DNA of 56,376 nt from Candidatus Caldarchaeum subterraneum (lineage in GTDB: Archaea > Thermoproteota > Nitrososphaeria_A > Caldarchaeales > Caldarchaeaceae), in NCBI GenBank assembly GCA_937934305.1, contig CALHAG010000008.1, positions 1-56,376 of the forward strand, written 5' to 3'. Positions 8,920 through 40,181 of this stretch are shown in pieces. Made by a program: the position numbers and the translations under genes. The notes beneath the pieces were generated by a model. That model was not told where the DNA came from and made no database searches. It saw only the letters and a list, made by a program, of their open reading frames with translations. Numbering within the stretch: the stretch's first letter is position 1; every line of letters starts with the position of its first letter.

Positions 8920-9199
8920 GAACGGTTTCATGGAGTATAGTGATGGAGAAAATAATGGTCAGAGGCGTTTATTTATCGACTTATGGGTTGAGGACGGCAT
9001 CCTATGCACGTCTTATAAGCCTGACGAGGAATATGACCATTACGAGAATACACCGAGCTTTAAAGCGCCGAATTATGGGAAAGGTATAGGCTTCTGCGCA
9101 AGATGCCAAGGAGGATACATTCTCGAATACTCTCCCAAATGCCCAATTCACGGTATAAAACTAAGAACAAAACCAAGAAAAAAGAAACAAACAACATAA
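8885..9199 (+). CDS. Small zinc-ribbon-like protein
   Basis: Read from 8885 this is 104 residues. An ATG at 8930, after the preceding stop, would give 89 residues. The C-terminal half holds C-x2-C-x11-C-x2-H (FCARCQGG, then KCPIHG), a plausible zinc-binding knuckle, and a very basic tail (KLRTKPRKKKQTT) that could bind nucleic acid. The N-terminal half is acidic and tyrosine-rich. No family is recognised. Function is not assigned. Confidence 0.5.
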   Translation: MIPLPPSGYLFENGFMEYSDGENNGQRRLFIDLWVEDGILCTSYKPDEEYDHYENTPSFKAPNYGKGIGFCARCQGGYILEYSPKCPIHGIKLRTKPRKKKQTT

Positions 9200-9241
9200 T
9201 TAGGGCATTATTGTGATATTTAATTTTGGCTTCATGTAACG

Positions 9242-15693: not shown

Positions 15694-15774
15694 GGCATAG
15701 ACAAGCCCGTCGGCAATAAAACATTATCCCACGGTGAGACTAAAATTATTGTAAATCTGTTGATTGGCGAGGAT

Positions 15775-17688
15775 ATGTTGCCTTTGGCTCCGTGGCTTGC
15801 ATGGGTTATACCTTTTCTCGGCAGCCTCTTTGTCCCCGCTTTCTTCAAAGCCGGTAAACGTGTTGGAGAAGTTTACTCGGTTGCGGTGGCGTTTCTCGCC
15901 GCGGCGTTCAGCCTCTCCATGATTCCCGACGTGTATGGTGGAAAATATTCCCAAGTTATTCGAGTTCCGTGGATTCCTCTTGGCGGAGACCGGTTCATAG
16001 AGGCAAGCCTTCTAGTCGACCCGCTTAGCGTCCTGATGGCCTCGATAGCGACTGGCATAGGTTCTCTGATAGTGTTATACAGCGTCGGCTACATGGCTCA
16101 TGAGGAGGGGCTTCCGCGTTACTACTTCTACATGCTCTTCTTCATAGGCGGCATGACTCTTCTCGTGATGTCGGAGAACCTGTTGATGCTATACATTGGC
16201 TGGGAAATCGTCGGCCTCTGCAGCTACGGCCTCATCAGTTTCTATAACAAGAAGCCTGAGGCTAACCATGCGGGCATCAAAGCCTTTGTCACCACGAGGA
16301 TAGGTGATGCCTCGATGCTTGTAGGCATCTTGATTCTCTTCGCGTTGTTCGGCACCTTCAGCTACGGCCACCTAAGCGAGAGCATAGCCGAGGGCTTGAG
16401 AACAGGCGCGGTTTCCGCCAGCTTCCTAGTTATACCGTTGCTTCTGCTTTTCGGTGGGGCAGTGGGCAAGTCAGCCCAATTCCCGCTCCATGTATGGCTG
16501 CCCGATGCGATGGAGGGTCCAACGCCGGTCTCGGCTCTCATCCACGCCGCCACCATGGTTAAAGCCGGTGTCTACCTCGTCGCTAGAATGATTTACACGG
16601 TGATACCTTTTGAAGAGTTTCCGCCGGTGTTGTTTGCTGACTGGTATCTGGTTGTTGCAACGCTCGCGGGATTTACCGCTTTCTTCGCCGCGACGATGGG
16701 CCTCGTCTCCAACGACATCAAGAGAGTGATTGCATACTCGACGATAAGCCAGCTCGGCCTCATGCTCGCGGCCCTTGGCATGGGTTCGGAGACGGGATTG
16801 TTTGGTGGAACATTCCATCTCCTAAGCCACAGCATCTTCAAGGCTCTTCTCTTCCTGGCGGCTGGAGCAGTCATCCACGCTGTTCACACAAACAACCTCG
16901 ATGAAATGGGTGGGCTGAGGAAGAGTATGCCCATAACCTTCTGGACATCAACAGTCGGAATATTGTCTCTTTCGGGAGTGCCTTTATTCAGCGGCTTCTG
17001 GAGCAAGGACCTAGTCATAGAATCCTCGCTGCAGGCCCCTAACATCCCCGTCTACCTATTCATCACAGGCGCCTCCATACTCACAGTGGCTTACAGCCTC
17101 AGATGGCTCTACAAAGTCTTCCTCGCACCTCCAAGCAACGGCCACCACAACCATGTCCACGAAGCGCCAAAGGTGATGACAATACCGCTCATCATACTCG
17201 CGGCCCTGTCGGTTTTCATAGGCGTAACAGGCCCATTCTTCGAGGAAGAATTTCACCACTACCTCGGGCTACACGGCGAAATAGGGGTAAGCCTAACCAC
17301 CTACGCCTCCACCGCGGCCATCCTCGCCTTAGGCGGAGGCCTGGGCTACCTATACTACCTCGGCGGCGTCAGAGACCCTGCAGCTGTTAGACAATCAGGT
17401 TTAGGGGCGGGATTGCACAAATTGCTGGAAAACCGCTACTACATAGACGCCTTCTACTATAGAGTGTTTGTCAACGGCCTTGATAGGCTCGGCTCCATTA
17501 TCTACCGCTTCATAGAGGTCAAGGTGATAGACGGCTTCAACTACTTCCTCTCAAGAGCCACCGTGGCCTTTGTCCAAGTGTTCCGCAGCATCCAGACAGG
17601 CGAGAGCAACATCAACATCAGCGGCCTCATCCTCGGCCTTGCAATTCTACTGCTACTTCTCCTCAGAGTATTTTTCGGCGTCAGCTAA
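15775..17688 (+). CDS. nuoL: NuoL-type proton-pumping subunit of complex I
   Basis: This 637-residue membrane protein has about 14-16 membrane helices. It carries the antiporter-like signature of NuoL: WEIVGLCSYGLISFY, then FPLHVWLPDAMEGPTPVSAL, then LLSHSIFKALLFLAAG. The long C-terminus includes the region for the lateral helix that distinguishes NuoL from NuoM and NuoN. It is part of the membrane arm of an NADH-, ferredoxin- or F420H2-type dehydrogenase. I chose the ATG at 15775 over an upstream TTG (15760) because the box TAAAATTATT (15741-15750) is 28 bases before it. The gene overlaps the convergent neighbour by 8 bases. Confidence 0.95.
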   Translation: MLPLAPWLAWVIPFLGSLFVPAFFKAGKRVGEVYSVAVAFLAAAFSLSMIPDVYGGKYSQVIRVPWIPLGGDRFIEASLLVDPLSVLMASIATGIGSLIVLYSVGYMAHEEGLPRYYFYMLFFIGGMTLLVMSENLLMLYIGWEIVGLCSYGLISFYNKKPEANHAGIKAFVTTRIGDASMLVGILILFALFGTFSYGHLSESIAEGLRTGAVSASFLVIPLLLLFGGAVGKSAQFPLHVWLPDAMEGPTPVSALIHAATMVKAGVYLVARMIYTVIPFEEFPPVLFADWYLVVATLAGFTAFFAATMGLVSNDIKRVIAYSTISQLGLMLAALGMGSETGLFGGTFHLLSHSIFKALLFLAAGAVIHAVHTNNLDEMGGLRKSMPITFWTSTVGILSLSGVPLFSGFWSKDLVIESSLQAPNIPVYLFITGASILTVAYSLRWLYKVFLAPPSNGHHNHVHEAPKVMTIPLIILAALSVFIGVTGPFFEEEFHHYLGLHGEIGVSLTTYASTAAILALGGGLGYLYYLGGVRDPAAVRQSGLGAGLHKLLENRYYIDAFYYRVFVNGLDRLGSIIYRFIEVKVIDGFNYFLSRATVAFVQVFRSIQTGESNINISGLILGLAILLLLLLRVFFGVS

Positions 17689-19018
17689 GAGCCTTGATTA
17701 AGAAGACGCATTTCTTGCCTCCCTTACCGCTGCACTCCATCTCCGAAACATCTACACCAGTCTTTAAAACGGCCTTGGCGGCTCCAACTAATATCGGTGA
17801 AAAAGTTTCCTGACAGTGTTGCTGGTTCTCGATGGTGTCCAACTCGCCGCATACGGGGCAGCTCTTCACCTCCACCACAAAAATCTTGGATGATTTCTTC
17901 TTAACATCCGCCTTCAACCCAAGCTGCTCCCGCAACATTTTAGCCAACAGAGTGTCAAATGAGATGCTCTCCATGTAGGACCGGGAGTATGAGTAGAGCC
18001 GTGCATAGAGCTGCCGCAGGTAGCTAAGGGCTTGGCCAAGTTGCAAATCTTTGTCGTGGTTTAGATAATCTGTTGTCGTCTCGGCTAACTCCTCAAACGC
18101 AGCCGTGAAAACAACAGCAAGCTTCTGGCCATAGTTGTCCACTTTTTCGTTGAGAAACGACCTGTCAACAGGAATTGTTACAAACTTGACCACACCCATG
18201 TCATATAGGATTCCGAGACTCTTTAACACGTCATCCAACTCGTCCCAGAATGCTTCCCCAACCCAGCTGAGGCTCCAGCCCGAAACCTCTCTCAACAAAA
18301 AATAGTGATTCAAAGATATTTTACCAGCATGTTTACCTGTGAAAACAACTTTAACCTCCTCCCCCGATATAAGCAACTGCCTTATCCTCGATAGAGCGGA
18401 TTCAGGAGTCTGCACCTCAGGCCTTACCAATAGTTTACCGTCATCAATCACATATGAGACTGGTTTTAGATTGTGTCTATCATCCGAGAGCCTTATGGGT
18501 GTAAAAAATGTTTCATAGCCGGATTGTTTCCTTTCTACACTCAGCTCAAGAGCTCCATCGACTATGGCGAGGAGTTTCCTCTCAAAGTCTGTGAAAGTAT
18601 GCTTAGGTATGATGAAGAATTCGAGATGCCCGTTTCTCCTAATCTCGTCGAGCCAGAAATTAATCATTCTCAGAACGTTTTCTTCTCCGTGTTTGACCAA
18701 GATGTCGGGGAGATAGAGATGTAGGAGAATCATCGGTTGATGAGTTTTCCTAACGGTGTTCACCTGAATGGAGAGGGACTGGAGATTGTCAACCTCCACG
18801 TGAAGAAACATCCTGCTCTCAGAGGAACCGCGTGGGGAAATAATTTCCATGATAGGCATTTTCGCGAACAATGCTTGTATGAAGTTTCTTCCCTCGGCGA
18901 AGCTCTCATCCAGCACGAGGACAGCACTGCCTCCGGTAAACTTCACTATCTCGTCGAATTCTTTGTTGCCGGTCTTGAACCGCTCCCCTGCTGCGGGACG
19001 CGGTCTCTCACCGCTCAA
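17681..19018 (-). CDS. KaiC-like protein without a P-loop, with C-terminal V4R-like domain
   Basis: This 445-residue protein starts at TTG. The first about 200 residues follow the RecA/KaiC layout, ending in a segment like KaiC proteins (IVDGALELSVERKQSG). The P-loop position reads VLDESFAEGRNF (about residues 35-46) instead of GxxxxGKT, so ATP binding is unlikely. A middle region I do not recognise follows. The last about 110 residues look like a V4R domain: C387-x2-C390, H401, C402, and the closing MECSGKGGKKCVFLI with C429 and C437. V4R domains bind small molecules or metals in regulators. It sits on the opposite strand between nuoL and nuoM. Confidence 0.65.
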   Translation of the reverse strand: MSGERPRPAAGERFKTGNKEFDEIVKFTGGSAVLVLDESFAEGRNFIQALFAKMPIMEIISPRGSSESRMFLHVEVDNLQSLSIQVNTVRKTHQPMILLHLYLPDILVKHGEENVLRMINFWLDEIRRNGHLEFFIIPKHTFTDFERKLLAIVDGALELSVERKQSGYETFFTPIRLSDDRHNLKPVSYVIDDGKLLVRPEVQTPESALSRIRQLLISGEEVKVVFTGKHAGKISLNHYFLLREVSGWSLSWVGEAFWDELDDVLKSLGILYDMGVVKFVTIPVDRSFLNEKVDNYGQKLAVVFTAAFEELAETTTDYLNHDKDLQLGQALSYLRQLYARLYSYSRSYMESISFDTLLAKMLREQLGLKADVKKKSSKIFVVEVKSCPVCGELDTIENQQHCQETFSPILVGAAKAVLKTGVDVSEMECSGKGGKKCVFLIKALS

Positions 19019-19185
19019 GTCTCTAAATTATAATGGGTAATACTATCCTAATAAGCGTGTGGATGATGCTATGAACGTCCATTCGACTTCTATGGCTGCA
19101 GTATGGCGTAACTCGGAAACGGTGCATATGTTTGGCCATGGATGGGGATTGGCTTAGCATTATATTGTAGTTTTTGGCTGGATGG

Positions 19186-20676
19186 ATGATGCTGCCCGGT
19201 ACACAGCTTGATATTCCCCTTCTATCGCTCGCGGTCTTCCTCCCCATCGCCATGACCCCGTTCGTGTATCTGGTGGGTAGAGTGGTTTCTTGGCGGGCAG
19301 CCTACCTCTTCTCCTCAGTTGTTCTCTTTATCCCGTTGGCTGTTTTCCTCAGCCTCACCCCCATGGTTTTAAACGGCGTCGGTTTCCATGAGGAGTATGA
19401 GTGGGTGCCGTTTCTCGGCCTCAGCGTGGGACTGGTGCTCGACAGCCTCAGCTACCCATTCATCCTCCTAATAACTCTCGTCGGATTCCTTGCGACAGTT
19501 TACTCAGGAAAGTATATGGAGAAAGAACACGGCTTGACATCCTACTTCACGCTTTTGACGCTATTTGTCGGCGGGATGATCGGCGTCGTCCTTGTCTCGA
19601 ACCTCTTCCTCTTCTACATCTTCTGGGAGCTAATGCTCATCCCATCATATGCGTTGATAGCGTACTGGGGCACCGGTAACCCGAGACTGATTGGCTTCAA
19701 ATATTTCATCTTTACACACGCGGGTGCTCTATCACTTCTCATCGGCATAGCTTGGCTCGCCGCTGTATTCGGCGACCTGAACATCTTCTCCCTCTCCGAA
19801 AAAGCTATGCTGGCCTCTGAGACACTACGCCCTATTCTCACATCCATAGCTGTGCTAATTTTCATAGGAGCGGCCGTTAAGATGGCTGTTTTCCCCTTCC
19901 ACACGTGGCTGCCCGACGCCCACGCAGAGGCACCCACACCCATTAGCGTCCTACTGAGCGGAGTGATGATTAAGACAGGTGTCTACGCAGTCGCTAGACT
20001 AGTCCTCGGAATAATGCCTTTCACAATGATGGACCTAAGGCTGCCCATAGCTATCTTAGCGCTTGTCAGCATGGTTTGGGGCGGGGTTATGGCGCTTGTG
20101 CAGACAGATGTGAAAAGGCTGCTCGCCTACAGCAGCATCAGCCAGATAGGCTACATCGTCTTCGGGCTTGCGGCGGCGAACCTCGCTGGTGTACAGGGAG
20201 CCTTGTTCCACGTACTCAACCACGGCTTCGCCAAAAGCCTCCTCTTCATGGCCGCGGGCGTGCTCATCCACGAGGTGCATGAAAGAGACATCCGCAAACT
20301 AGGCGGCCTCGGCTCAAAAATGCCCCTCACCACGGTAGCTATGCTGGTCGGCGGCCTCTCAATAGCCGGCACCCCTCCGCTGGGCGGGTTCATGAGCGAA
20401 TGGATGATATTCGCGGGAGGAGTTGAGGCTGGGTGGATCATATCCGTCGCTGTGGCTGTGTTCGCCACCGCCATCACAGCGGGATACTATCTAAGAATGG
20501 TGAGAGCTGTTTTCTTTGGTGAAGGGAGAGTAGAGGGAAGAGACCCGGGCGTGATGATGGCCGCACCCATGTCCCCTCTGCTGGCTCTCGTCATCGTGTT
20601 AGGTTTCCTCGCTTCGCCCATTCTCACAGTGATAGGAGAGAGCGCCGCGGCCCTTGTCTTAAACGTGTTGGCTTAA
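19186..20676 (+). CDS. nuoM: NuoM-type proton-pumping subunit of complex I
   Basis: This protein of about 496 residues has roughly 14 membrane helices and the NuoM pattern: FYIFWELMLIPSYALIAYWG, then FPFHTWLPDAHAEAPTPISVL, then LFHVLNHGFAKSLLFMAAG. The key lysines and glutamates of the antiporter fold are present. A longer start (TTG, 19174) exists, but the TATA-like box ATTATATT at 19159-19166 is 26 bases before the ATG at 19186. nuoL is upstream on the same strand but separated by an opposite-strand gene and 1.5 kb, so nuoM has its own promoter. Confidence 0.95.
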   Translation: MMLPGTQLDIPLLSLAVFLPIAMTPFVYLVGRVVSWRAAYLFSSVVLFIPLAVFLSLTPMVLNGVGFHEEYEWVPFLGLSVGLVLDSLSYPFILLITLVGFLATVYSGKYMEKEHGLTSYFTLLTLFVGGMIGVVLVSNLFLFYIFWELMLIPSYALIAYWGTGNPRLIGFKYFIFTHAGALSLLIGIAWLAAVFGDLNIFSLSEKAMLASETLRPILTSIAVLIFIGAAVKMAVFPFHTWLPDAHAEAPTPISVLLSGVMIKTGVYAVARLVLGIMPFTMMDLRLPIAILALVSMVWGGVMALVQTDVKRLLAYSSISQIGYIVFGLAAANLAGVQGALFHVLNHGFAKSLLFMAAGVLIHEVHERDIRKLGGLGSKMPLTTVAMLVGGLSIAGTPPLGGFMSEWMIFAGGVEAGWIISVAVAVFATAITAGYYLRMVRAVFFGEGRVEGRDPGVMMAAPMSPLLALVIVLGFLASPILTVIGESAAALVLNVLA

Positions 20677-20677
20677 T

Positions 20678-21406
20678 CTACTGCTCACTCTTTAACAGGG
20701 GTAGCTGCCTACTTCTCTTTTTCTCCTGACCCGGATTGGGTATGAGCAACGCTGTGTCGATTTTCTCAAACAGTTCGGGAAAGTTTTCTCTAAAATAGAG
20801 TCTGACAACGTAAACGGTTATGCCCATGCCGACTATTCCTGACAATATCATGGCCCATCGTGGGTAGAAAAGCGACTCCGTCAAGAAAGAGGAGACCGCT
20901 ATCCAGAGGGCCGGTGTCAATATGATGAAAAGGGCTACAACCGCTTTTGTCACAAGCATCTTGTCGGCAAGAATTCTCGCTATCGCGGCGGAGAATCCCT
21001 CCTGTGTTTCAAGCTCGGAGACGAGGTCGGGTGAGATGTTGTAGAAGGTTTTGCCTATGTTTTCGAAGAGCTGTGGAGTGGTGGCCGCGAAAAGGTCGGG
21101 CCTCAGCAAAGCCCTTCTCACACCGTCTCGTGCAACGAGGTAGATGTTGTCGCCTTCTATAAACAGTCTAAGGCCCCTCCTTTTAGCAAACCTCTCTATT
21201 TTTCCAAGGTTCTCTGCGGCTGTGATGCCCGGTATAGGGGTTTTGAGAGCCATTCCCAGCAGCGGCGGTGTGGCTGGGATGTATCTATTTACAACAAATG
21301 CACCGTCCCTGAACTCGGGCATCTTCTCCATCATCACAGCCTCGGGAACACCTTTGCCAAGCTGCTCCGACACGTGTTTGAAAGCTTTAGAGAAGGCCTC
21401 CGACAT
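20678..21406 (-). CDS. Membrane protein of unknown function at the end of the peptide-transporter operon
   Basis: This is a 242-residue protein. About 150 soluble residues are followed by two membrane segments (around 155-180 and 185-205) and a basic tail (KKRSRQLPLLK). I do not recognise a family. It lies 24 bases after oppF on the same strand, so it is probably co-transcribed with the peptide transporter. It may be a regulator or partner of that system. Its 3' end lies one base from the convergent nuoM. Confidence 0.6.
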   Translation of the reverse strand: MSEAFSKAFKHVSEQLGKGVPEAVMMEKMPEFRDGAFVVNRYIPATPPLLGMALKTPIPGITAAENLGKIERFAKRRGLRLFIEGDNIYLVARDGVRRALLRPDLFAATTPQLFENIGKTFYNISPDLVSELETQEGFSAAIARILADKMLVTKAVVALFIILTPALWIAVSSFLTESLFYPRWAMILSGIVGMGITVYVVRLYFRENFPELFEKIDTALLIPNPGQEKKRSRQLPLLKSEQ

Positions 21407-38720: not shown

Positions 38721-40181
38721 CTAAGCCATTAAGATGGTGGAGATTGTTAGGGCTGCGTCAAGGAAGGGTGTCGGGTAGACGCCTATGACTATTGCTGATG
38801 CCGCTAGTACTAGTAGTGAGAACCGCATACCCATTGTCACCGGCTTTTTGATTTGGAGTGTATTGGATGGTTCTTTGAGGAAAATTGTTTGGACGAGTCT
38901 CATGTAGTATGCTACGCTGACCAAGATGTTGATTATCATGACCGCGGCTAGGATTGAGTAGATGCCGCCTGCTTGTAGGGCTGCCGTGACTATGGTGAAC
39001 TCGCTCCAGAAGACGTTTAGACCGGGTATGCCGGCTAGCGAGAAGGCGCCTATGCCGAAGCAGGTGGCTGCGAGAGGCAGTTTCTTACCGATTCCAGCTA
39101 GGTCATCTAATCGCCGTGTCTGAGCCGCGTGTATGAATGCTCCAGCCCCGAGGAAGAGCAGAGCCTTCATGAGAGCGTGGTTGAGAACATGAAATATTCC
39201 GCCCGTTAACCCGGTAACAGTCGCTATGCTTATACCAAATACGATGTAGCCGATATGCGCTATGGAACTGAAGGCCAGCAACCTCTTGACATCTTCCTGC
39301 ATAAGCGCCAACAGGTTCCCCAAAGACATGGTCAAGACGGCGAAAACAGCCAACCCCAGCTGCCAACCGAAGAGACTCGGCGTAAACACTCCCATCAACA
39401 CCCTTATCATCGCGTAAACACCCGCCTTGATCACCACGCCAGAAAGCATGGCGCTGATTGGGCTGGGTGCCGCCGGATGAGCGTCGGGGAGCCAAGAATG
39501 AAACGGAGCCATCGCTGCGTTGACGCCGAACCCTGTGATGAGTAGAGCGATTGCGAGATAAGCCCATGGCTCGGCTGCAACAGCCTGTGACGCGAGGGCC
39601 TCTCCGAGCCTAGTCAGCTCAAGGGTGCCTGCGAGGCCATACATCAGCGACATCCCGAAAAGTATCGCGGCAGCTCCCGCGGCGCTCATTATGAGGTACT
39701 TTAGCGAGGCCTCCACAGCCTCCCACGTCCTGTACCTGAATGCGACGAGGAGGTATGAGGAGATTGACATCATCTCCCAGAAAATGAAGAAGGTGAAGAG
39801 GTCGCCTGAGTAAACCACTCCCACCAACCCCGTCACCAAAATCATCAGAAGGGGGTAGAACTCGGGTTTACGCTCCTCGACGTAGCCGAAGGAAAACAAA
39901 GTCGAAAGCAGACCAACAACTAGGAAGATTAATGCAAGAAATATCGAGAGGCCATCCACGTATATCTGCGAGCCCGGAGACCCGTAGGAAACTGTGTAAA
40001 CCTTTCCCGCGAAAATTTCCGAAGCCTGAGTCAAGGCAATAGCCGTCGCAGCCGCCAAGGCTACAGCGGTGTATACCTCAACAACTCTTGGCTTGTTCAA
40101 ACCTCTGCCAACCAGTGAAAAAACAGGTGAGAGGAGTGTGAAAATTATCAGGGCGTTTAGGGATGGGGTGAAGTCTATCAT
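38721..40181 (-). CDS. nuoN: NuoN-like proton-pumping subunit of complex I
   Basis: This 486-residue membrane protein has about 14 helices and the antiporter core FFIFWEMMSISSYLLVAF, then FHSWLPDAHPAAPSPISAML, then HVLNHALMKALLFLGAGA. It lies over 18 kb from nuoM. It could also be a MrpD or HyfB-like subunit, since these share the same core. The short C-terminus and the order of motifs make NuoN the best guess. Confidence 0.85.
   Translation of the reverse strand: MIDFTPSLNALIIFTLLSPVFSLVGRGLNKPRVVEVYTAVALAAATAIALTQASEIFAGKVYTVSYGSPGSQIYVDGLSIFLALIFLVVGLLSTLFSFGYVEERKPEFYPLLMILVTGLVGVVYSGDLFTFFIFWEMMSISSYLLVAFRYRTWEAVEASLKYLIMSAAGAAAILFGMSLMYGLAGTLELTRLGEALASQAVAAEPWAYLAIALLITGFGVNAAMAPFHSWLPDAHPAAPSPISAMLSGVVIKAGVYAMIRVLMGVFTPSLFGWQLGLAVFAVLTMSLGNLLALMQEDVKRLLAFSSIAHIGYIVFGISIATVTGLTGGIFHVLNHALMKALLFLGAGAFIHAAQTRRLDDLAGIGKKLPLAATCFGIGAFSLAGIPGLNVFWSEFTIVTAALQAGGIYSILAAVMIINILVSVAYYMRLVQTIFLKEPSNTLQIKKPVTMGMRFSLLVLAASAIVIGVYPTPFLDAALTISTILMA

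Follow-up and report, generated by a model that had tools for sequence, protein, structure and literature searches.

A predicted KaiC-like/V4R protein family without a P-loop that co-occurs with a putative prenyl/terpene synthase family in archaea

KaiC-type folds that have lost their nucleotide site are known from archaea. The available sections of PMC5847659 describe the inactivated KaiC (iKaiC) proteins, among them DUF835 and MEDS, as archaeal proteins in which such a fold is fused to signalling domains. V4R domains are likewise known from archaea and elsewhere, for instance in MJ1460, in the phenol sensors MopR, PoxR and DmpR, in the stand-alone TRAPPC3 protein of Thorarchaeota (7yh2), and in the methanogen redox regulator MsvR. 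Here we analyze a gene of Candidatus Caldarchaeum subterraneum that joins the two kinds of domain. It lies on the minus strand at positions 17681-19018 of a 56,376-nucleotide stretch of DNA (hereafter the window), starts with a TTG codon and encodes 445 amino acids comprising an inactivated-KaiC-like domain, a helical middle region and a V4R domain; we refer to its family as c0. Based on the predicted fold, we find that c0 fits the description of an iKaiC protein, being a multidomain protein of archaea whose KaiC fold has lost its nucleotide site, and that it functions in the manner of a sensory or accessory protein of the iKaiC/V4R kind. Unlike the iKaiC proteins, c0 is fused to V4R and is linked to a gene with a predicted prenyl/terpene synthase fold (family c1). 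We found no description of the c0 family in listings of the literature on V4R and KaiC, V4R and isoprenoids, DUF835, archaeal terpene synthases or Caldarchaeum quinones, a survey that mostly excluded subscription papers.

A first-pass annotation of the window, made from the letters alone, had proposed a KaiC-type layout with DESFAEGRNF in place of the nucleotide-binding loop, and structure prediction bears this out. The AlphaFold2 (AF2) model of the window protein, built on 14 aligned relatives, has a predicted local distance difference test score (pLDDT) of 84 and a predicted template modelling score (pTM) of 0.60. In this model, residues 8-211 (18386-18997; this and all other features of the gene are on the minus strand) superpose on KaiC (8dba) with a VIA Z of 17.8 over 192 residues and a root-mean-square deviation of 3.0, and on the archaeal protein PH0284 (2dr3) with a VIA Z of 16.8. 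A Foldseek match to KaiC has an E value of 2.9e-8. Among VIA results, only structures present in the lists were taken as evidence. The first 200 or so residues are thus predicted to adopt the RecA/KaiC-like fold. DESFAEGRNF (residues 37-46; 18881-18910) occupies the P-loop position of KaiC in the model, right after strand 32-37 and ahead of helix 41-50, and no Walker A motif (GxxGxGKT) is present at this position in any of the 14 aligned members. By its motifs c0 is therefore not an active KaiC and is probably dead as an ATPase. Membership in the KaiC family by sequence was rejected: none of the 14 members matches the KaiC profile (PF06745) at an E value of 1, an hhalign comparison of c0 with seven P-loop KaiC proteins gave a probability of 4%, and only the fold speaks for KaiC. 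Eight residues of this half, D22, G30, D37, N87, R90, H100, W122 and E133, are invariant in the 14-sequence alignment, which suggests that the former nucleotide-site region retains another role; H100 would close the strand that bears Walker B in KaiC. The middle region (residues 205-320; 18059-18406) is mostly helical in the model and acidic in its first part, with 7-11 lysines or arginines against 10-15 aspartates or glutamates in the segment tested. It gave no confident match to any known family. A winged helix, considered from the sequence pattern, is not claimed, since a profile of the 14 segments found a single PDB sequence at an E value of 0.67.

The C-terminal V4R domain is supported by profile matches. 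Pfam V4R (PF02830) matches residues 381-442 (17693-17878) of the window protein alone at 25.8 bits, under the curated cut-off of 31, and matches all 14 members at an E value of 1 or better (best, 1.2e-18). In the PDB, the c0 V4R profile finds MJ1460 (2osd; 7.8e-8), Thorarchaeota TRAPPC3 (0.0065) and MopR (0.04 and 0.07). The first-pass annotation had called this end cysteine-rich and had listed a histidine among the notable residues. The cysteines hold up: C387, C390, C402, C429 and C437, which with the invariant E426 span 17708-17860, do not vary among the 14 aligned members or among the 19 C-terminal segments compared. H401 does not; of the proteins aligned, only the window protein and the orthologue nearest to it carry this residue, which falls outside the conserved set. 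By hidden Markov model alignment, C387, C390, C402 and C437 coincide with cysteines of TRAPPC3, and C402, C429 and C437 with cysteines of MopR. The accessible text of PMC7264223 gives Cys151, Glu172, Cys177 and Cys185 as the zinc ligands of DmpR, and that of PMC10933270 gives four cysteines as those of Thorarchaeota TRAPPC3. Based on these alignments and published ligands, a zinc site in the c0 V4R domain is likely. The architectures differ. MopR, PoxR and DmpR lack the extra invariant C387 and C390 and the N-terminal dead KaiC domain, and in c0 no AAA+ or DNA-binding domain was found; TRAPPC3 stands alone, without a KaiC part. The c0 family offers a concrete route to ask what archaeal V4R domains bind. 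Separately, the window's genome encodes another V4R-type protein in a frame of about 170 amino acids (L037, about 9050-9240; G000:C15:34050-34238), matched over the V4R domain only.

We next looked at the distribution of the family. A c0 profile search finds full-length members in 16 of 398 genomes of the phylum, with 19 copies in all; a further 72 of the 88 genomes with matches were excluded from this count for partial coverage, nearly always of the V4R end only. A second profile search finds c1 in exactly the same 16 genomes, and in every one of them the c0 and c1 genes are neighbours or have a single gene between them. These genomes represent seven genera and six families. A direct sequence search for relatives of the window protein among named genome contigs found none, and a profile of six closer sequences found five loci in genome contigs, four from Candidatus Terraquivivens and one from an uncultured archaeon. 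Terraquivivens falls within the Caldarchaeales.

The c1 protein of the window's own genome is encoded at L023:13254-14414 and has 15 relatives elsewhere. Two members scanned had no convincing Pfam match, and NCBIfam matches were stray only. A confident model (pLDDT 91, pTM 0.90) resembles tolypothrichol synthase (9kgb; VIA Z 22.2), the class IB structures 5yo8 and 6loo (21.8) and polyprenyl diphosphate synthases (about 20), and c1 is accordingly predicted to have a class I prenyl/terpene synthase fold. Aspartate-rich motifs are characteristic of such enzymes. In c1, LDNxND, GQ and YDDxxD are invariant in 15 of 15 sequences; the second aspartate-rich motif is DDxxD-like and the first is altered, a pattern that may fit a prenyl/terpene synthase with a modified first motif.

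The companions of the c0-c1 module point to isoprenoid chemistry. The third gene is of the HAD (phosphatase) type in 11 of the 16 modules, UbiA in four and geranylgeranyl-reductase-like in one; Pfam assigned HAD in L030, L035, L069 and L070, UbiA in L023 and the reductase in L068, and the rest were assigned via BLAST clusters. A P-loop KaiC-type gene is close by in seven of 16 modules, as judged from BLAST clusters and sequence, with Pfam on L023 only. Quinone is one option only for the product. Of 19 genomes searched, 14 match the linked methyltransferase of the UbiE type, namely 11 of the 16 with the module and all three without it; the linked UbiA is matched in seven, strongly in four. Within family f1, UbiA occurs in four of four genomes with the module and in none of the three searched without it (G004, G006 and G007). 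A firm quinone-pathway reading was lowered on these counts. The fusion of the two kinds of domain in c0, together with the exact co-occurrence with the undescribed family c1, points to an uncharacterised isoprenoid pathway in the Caldarchaeales and other members of the phylum. As a side observation, the c1-c0 pair of Terraquivivens-type genomes (L029-L034) adjoins a Vps4/MIT AAA gene and, by reading, a CdvB/ESCRT-III-like gene, and in L070 a similar CdvB-like gene is found some 5 kb away from the pair.

Based on these data, we tentatively favour, at a little under even confidence, an explanation in which c0 is a P-loop-less KaiC/V4R protein that takes up an isoprenoid or quinone-like ligand in its zinc-cysteine V4R domain and works with c1, the window copy being partnerless and possibly serving respiration. 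The zinc-cysteine cluster would hold the V4R domain together, and the ligand bound by that domain would be a hydrophobic one. The dead KaiC domain would serve as a docking or oligomerisation platform, and ligand binding would be relayed through it to c1 or, where one is encoded nearby, to an active KaiC. In the window's genus, c0 would have been duplicated, with one copy landing between nuoL and nuoM; this copy would have lost its enzyme partner, diverged fast and possibly come to signal the state of the ligand, or the redox state, to respiration. Several points weigh against this explanation. The tie between c0 and P-loop KaiC proteins is unsupported by sequence profiles, and the fold is a predicted one. 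Both the metal and the ligand are putative. A quinone product is not established, because five of 16 module genomes show no match to the linked UbiE-type methyltransferase and the linked UbiA matches strongly only in four. No c1 adjoins the window copy, and in one relative (G006) the nuoL-nuoM junction holds an unrelated gene, which by its translation encodes a 402-residue dihydrolipoyl-acyltransferase-like protein on the opposite strand (L078:1910-3118). A bolder version, which we regard as a long shot, is that c0 and c1 form an undescribed archaeal isoprenoid system in which c0, sensing an isoprenoid or quinone, would act as the gate for a prenyl/terpene synthase of a new class, the enzyme-less duplicate having been recruited to complex I as a reporter of quinone state. 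The family also gives a way to ask if KaiC-type hubs control the supply of isoprenoids or quinones in archaea.

The window copy is not the only c0 in its genome (1.56 Mb in 30 contigs, 97% complete). The second, at L023:10939-12402, is clustered with c1 and KaiC and sits between genes for a UbiE-type methyltransferase and UbiA. In a tree that carries the tool's long-branch warnings, the three copies next to nuo genes join the remaining four of f1 (100/98), with a long stem that measures 1.49 changes per column, so the nuo copy looks like a duplicate within f1 that lost c1 and diverged quickly. Its linker, too, is shorter in the alignment. The ratio of nonsynonymous (dN) to synonymous (dS) change shows that the nuo copy is a genuine gene on which purifying selection acts: compared with the orthologue in the sister species G002, to which it is 88% identical, dN is 0.060 and dS 0.419, a ratio of 0.144. 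Constraint is looser than on its neighbors, for which the same comparison gives ratios of 0.046 (nuoL) and 0.058 (nuoM), and dN values of 0.015 and 0.020. The full-length relatives, this ratio and the predicted KaiC fold together indicate that the features read in the window are more than chance.

The gene lies between two antiporter-like subunit genes of complex I on the plus strand, a nuoL type (15760-17688) and a nuoM type (19174-20676), and the Proton_antipo_M domain was confirmed in both proteins. As had been noted from the sequence, it runs on the opposite strand and overlaps the end of nuoL, here by eight bases in convergent orientation; 155 bases separate its start codon from that of nuoM. 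To see how far this arrangement is kept, we read nuoL and nuoM positions by hand from match tables for the genomes named here, out of 61. The order nuoL-c0-nuoM is found in all three same-genus genomes that show both genes (G000, G002 and G003) and is restricted to this one genus. G003 has an extra 339-residue gene between nuoM and c0 (L025:6700-7719), regulator-like with a helix-turn-helix (HTH) by inspection of its sequence and with no Pfam match at 1e-4. In G001, a genome in which we found no c0, the contig ends inside nuoM. In other genera of the family the junction is closed, opened or differently filled. The nuoL and nuoM matches are about 10 bases apart in G004 and G007 and about 16-37 bases apart in 12 f4 genomes (G010, G013, G015, G017, G019, G021, G023, G025, G027, G033, G034 and G039). 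In G005 the two genes are 9.6 kb apart, with glutamine-synthetase-like and other genes (by reading) between them, and in 11 f2 genomes the best matches are far apart or on separate contigs (G008, G011, G014, G016, G018, G020, G022, G024, G026, G028 and G030). Since nuoL and nuoM of relatives may lie side by side, 9.6 kb from each other or on either side of the acyltransferase-like gene, the junction is labile and accepts insertions.

These observations bear on whether the position has meaning. We judge it an even call that an insertion-prone junction simply took in a duplicated gene with no tie to complex I, an account compatible with the explanation we favour. The unrelated insert of G006, the open and closed junctions of G005, G004 and G007, the opposite orientation of c0 and its higher dN all fit such an incidental position. 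On the other side, the place is kept in every same-genus genome where both genes can be seen, and in G005 a c0-c1 cluster lies directly upstream of nuoL, giving two arrangements in which c0 and nuoL are physically linked. The proposal of the first-pass annotation, a metal- or redox-sensing regulator of respiration, thus stands in part: sensing of either kind is a fair idea by the cysteine pattern, while a special link to complex I fared less well, the gene order being confined to one genus. Any tie to complex I is putative and probably ranks behind the far better supported tie to the isoprenoid enzyme.

A second alternative, which we consider rather unlikely, is that c0 is not a sensor; it would be a non-catalytic partner of c1, such as a chaperone, substrate carrier or product acceptor, and the window copy would serve some other prenyl enzyme. 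Such a partnership would suit the exact co-occurrence and tight linkage of the two families in 16 of 16 genomes, and the accessible text of PMC10933270 reports palmitate or phenols held in the cavities of V4R/TRAPPC3 proteins. The absence of an adjacent c1 beside the nuo copy in three genomes argues against it, as does the usual reading of archaeal KaiC-like domains as signalling parts in the available sections of PMC5847659.

Lastly, the c0 cysteine pattern resembles that of both the zinc-binding V4R/TRAPPC3 proteins and the redox-responsive MsvR, which is what makes metal or redox sensing by c0 a fair idea. C402, C429 and C437 are spaced 27 and 8 residues apart; the part of PMC3729527 available to us reports that MsvR C206, C232 and C240, spaced 26 and 8, matter functionally by mutation, and that one MsvR homologue has a CX2C pair. 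However, c0 is not an MsvR: unlike MsvR, with its N-terminal HTH, c0 has a predicted KaiC fold at its N-terminus, and Pfam-type scans matched no HTH family in the window protein or the 14 members. That c0 is an MsvR-like redox regulator, whose V4R cysteines form disulfides on oxidation and alter activity on DNA or complex I, is improbable, for although the spacing and a weak match of residues 371-441 to the NCBIfam MsvR model (E 0.0015, 18.3 bits, well below the cut-off of 220) lean that way, no DNA-binding domain was found, the tested middle segment is acidic and without a confident match, and the cysteines also fit a structural zinc site.

Matches to DUF835 and DUF7504 are marginal, each found in one of 14 members (E 0.13 and 0.18, respectively). 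A plasmid search with the window protein gave no match, nor did a PADLOC search at an E value of 1 with the window protein, its own-genome paralogue and c1. Beside nuoM, a minus-strand gene at 20678-21406 encodes 242 amino acids with hydrophobic stretches toward the C-terminus; it matches nothing in Pfam at 1e-5 and is kept beside nuoM in the genus (L024, L025 and L079). Farther along the window, away from nuoL and nuoM, a third Proton_antipo_M protein is encoded on the minus strand at 38721-40181, adjoining a class II ribonucleotide reductase gene.

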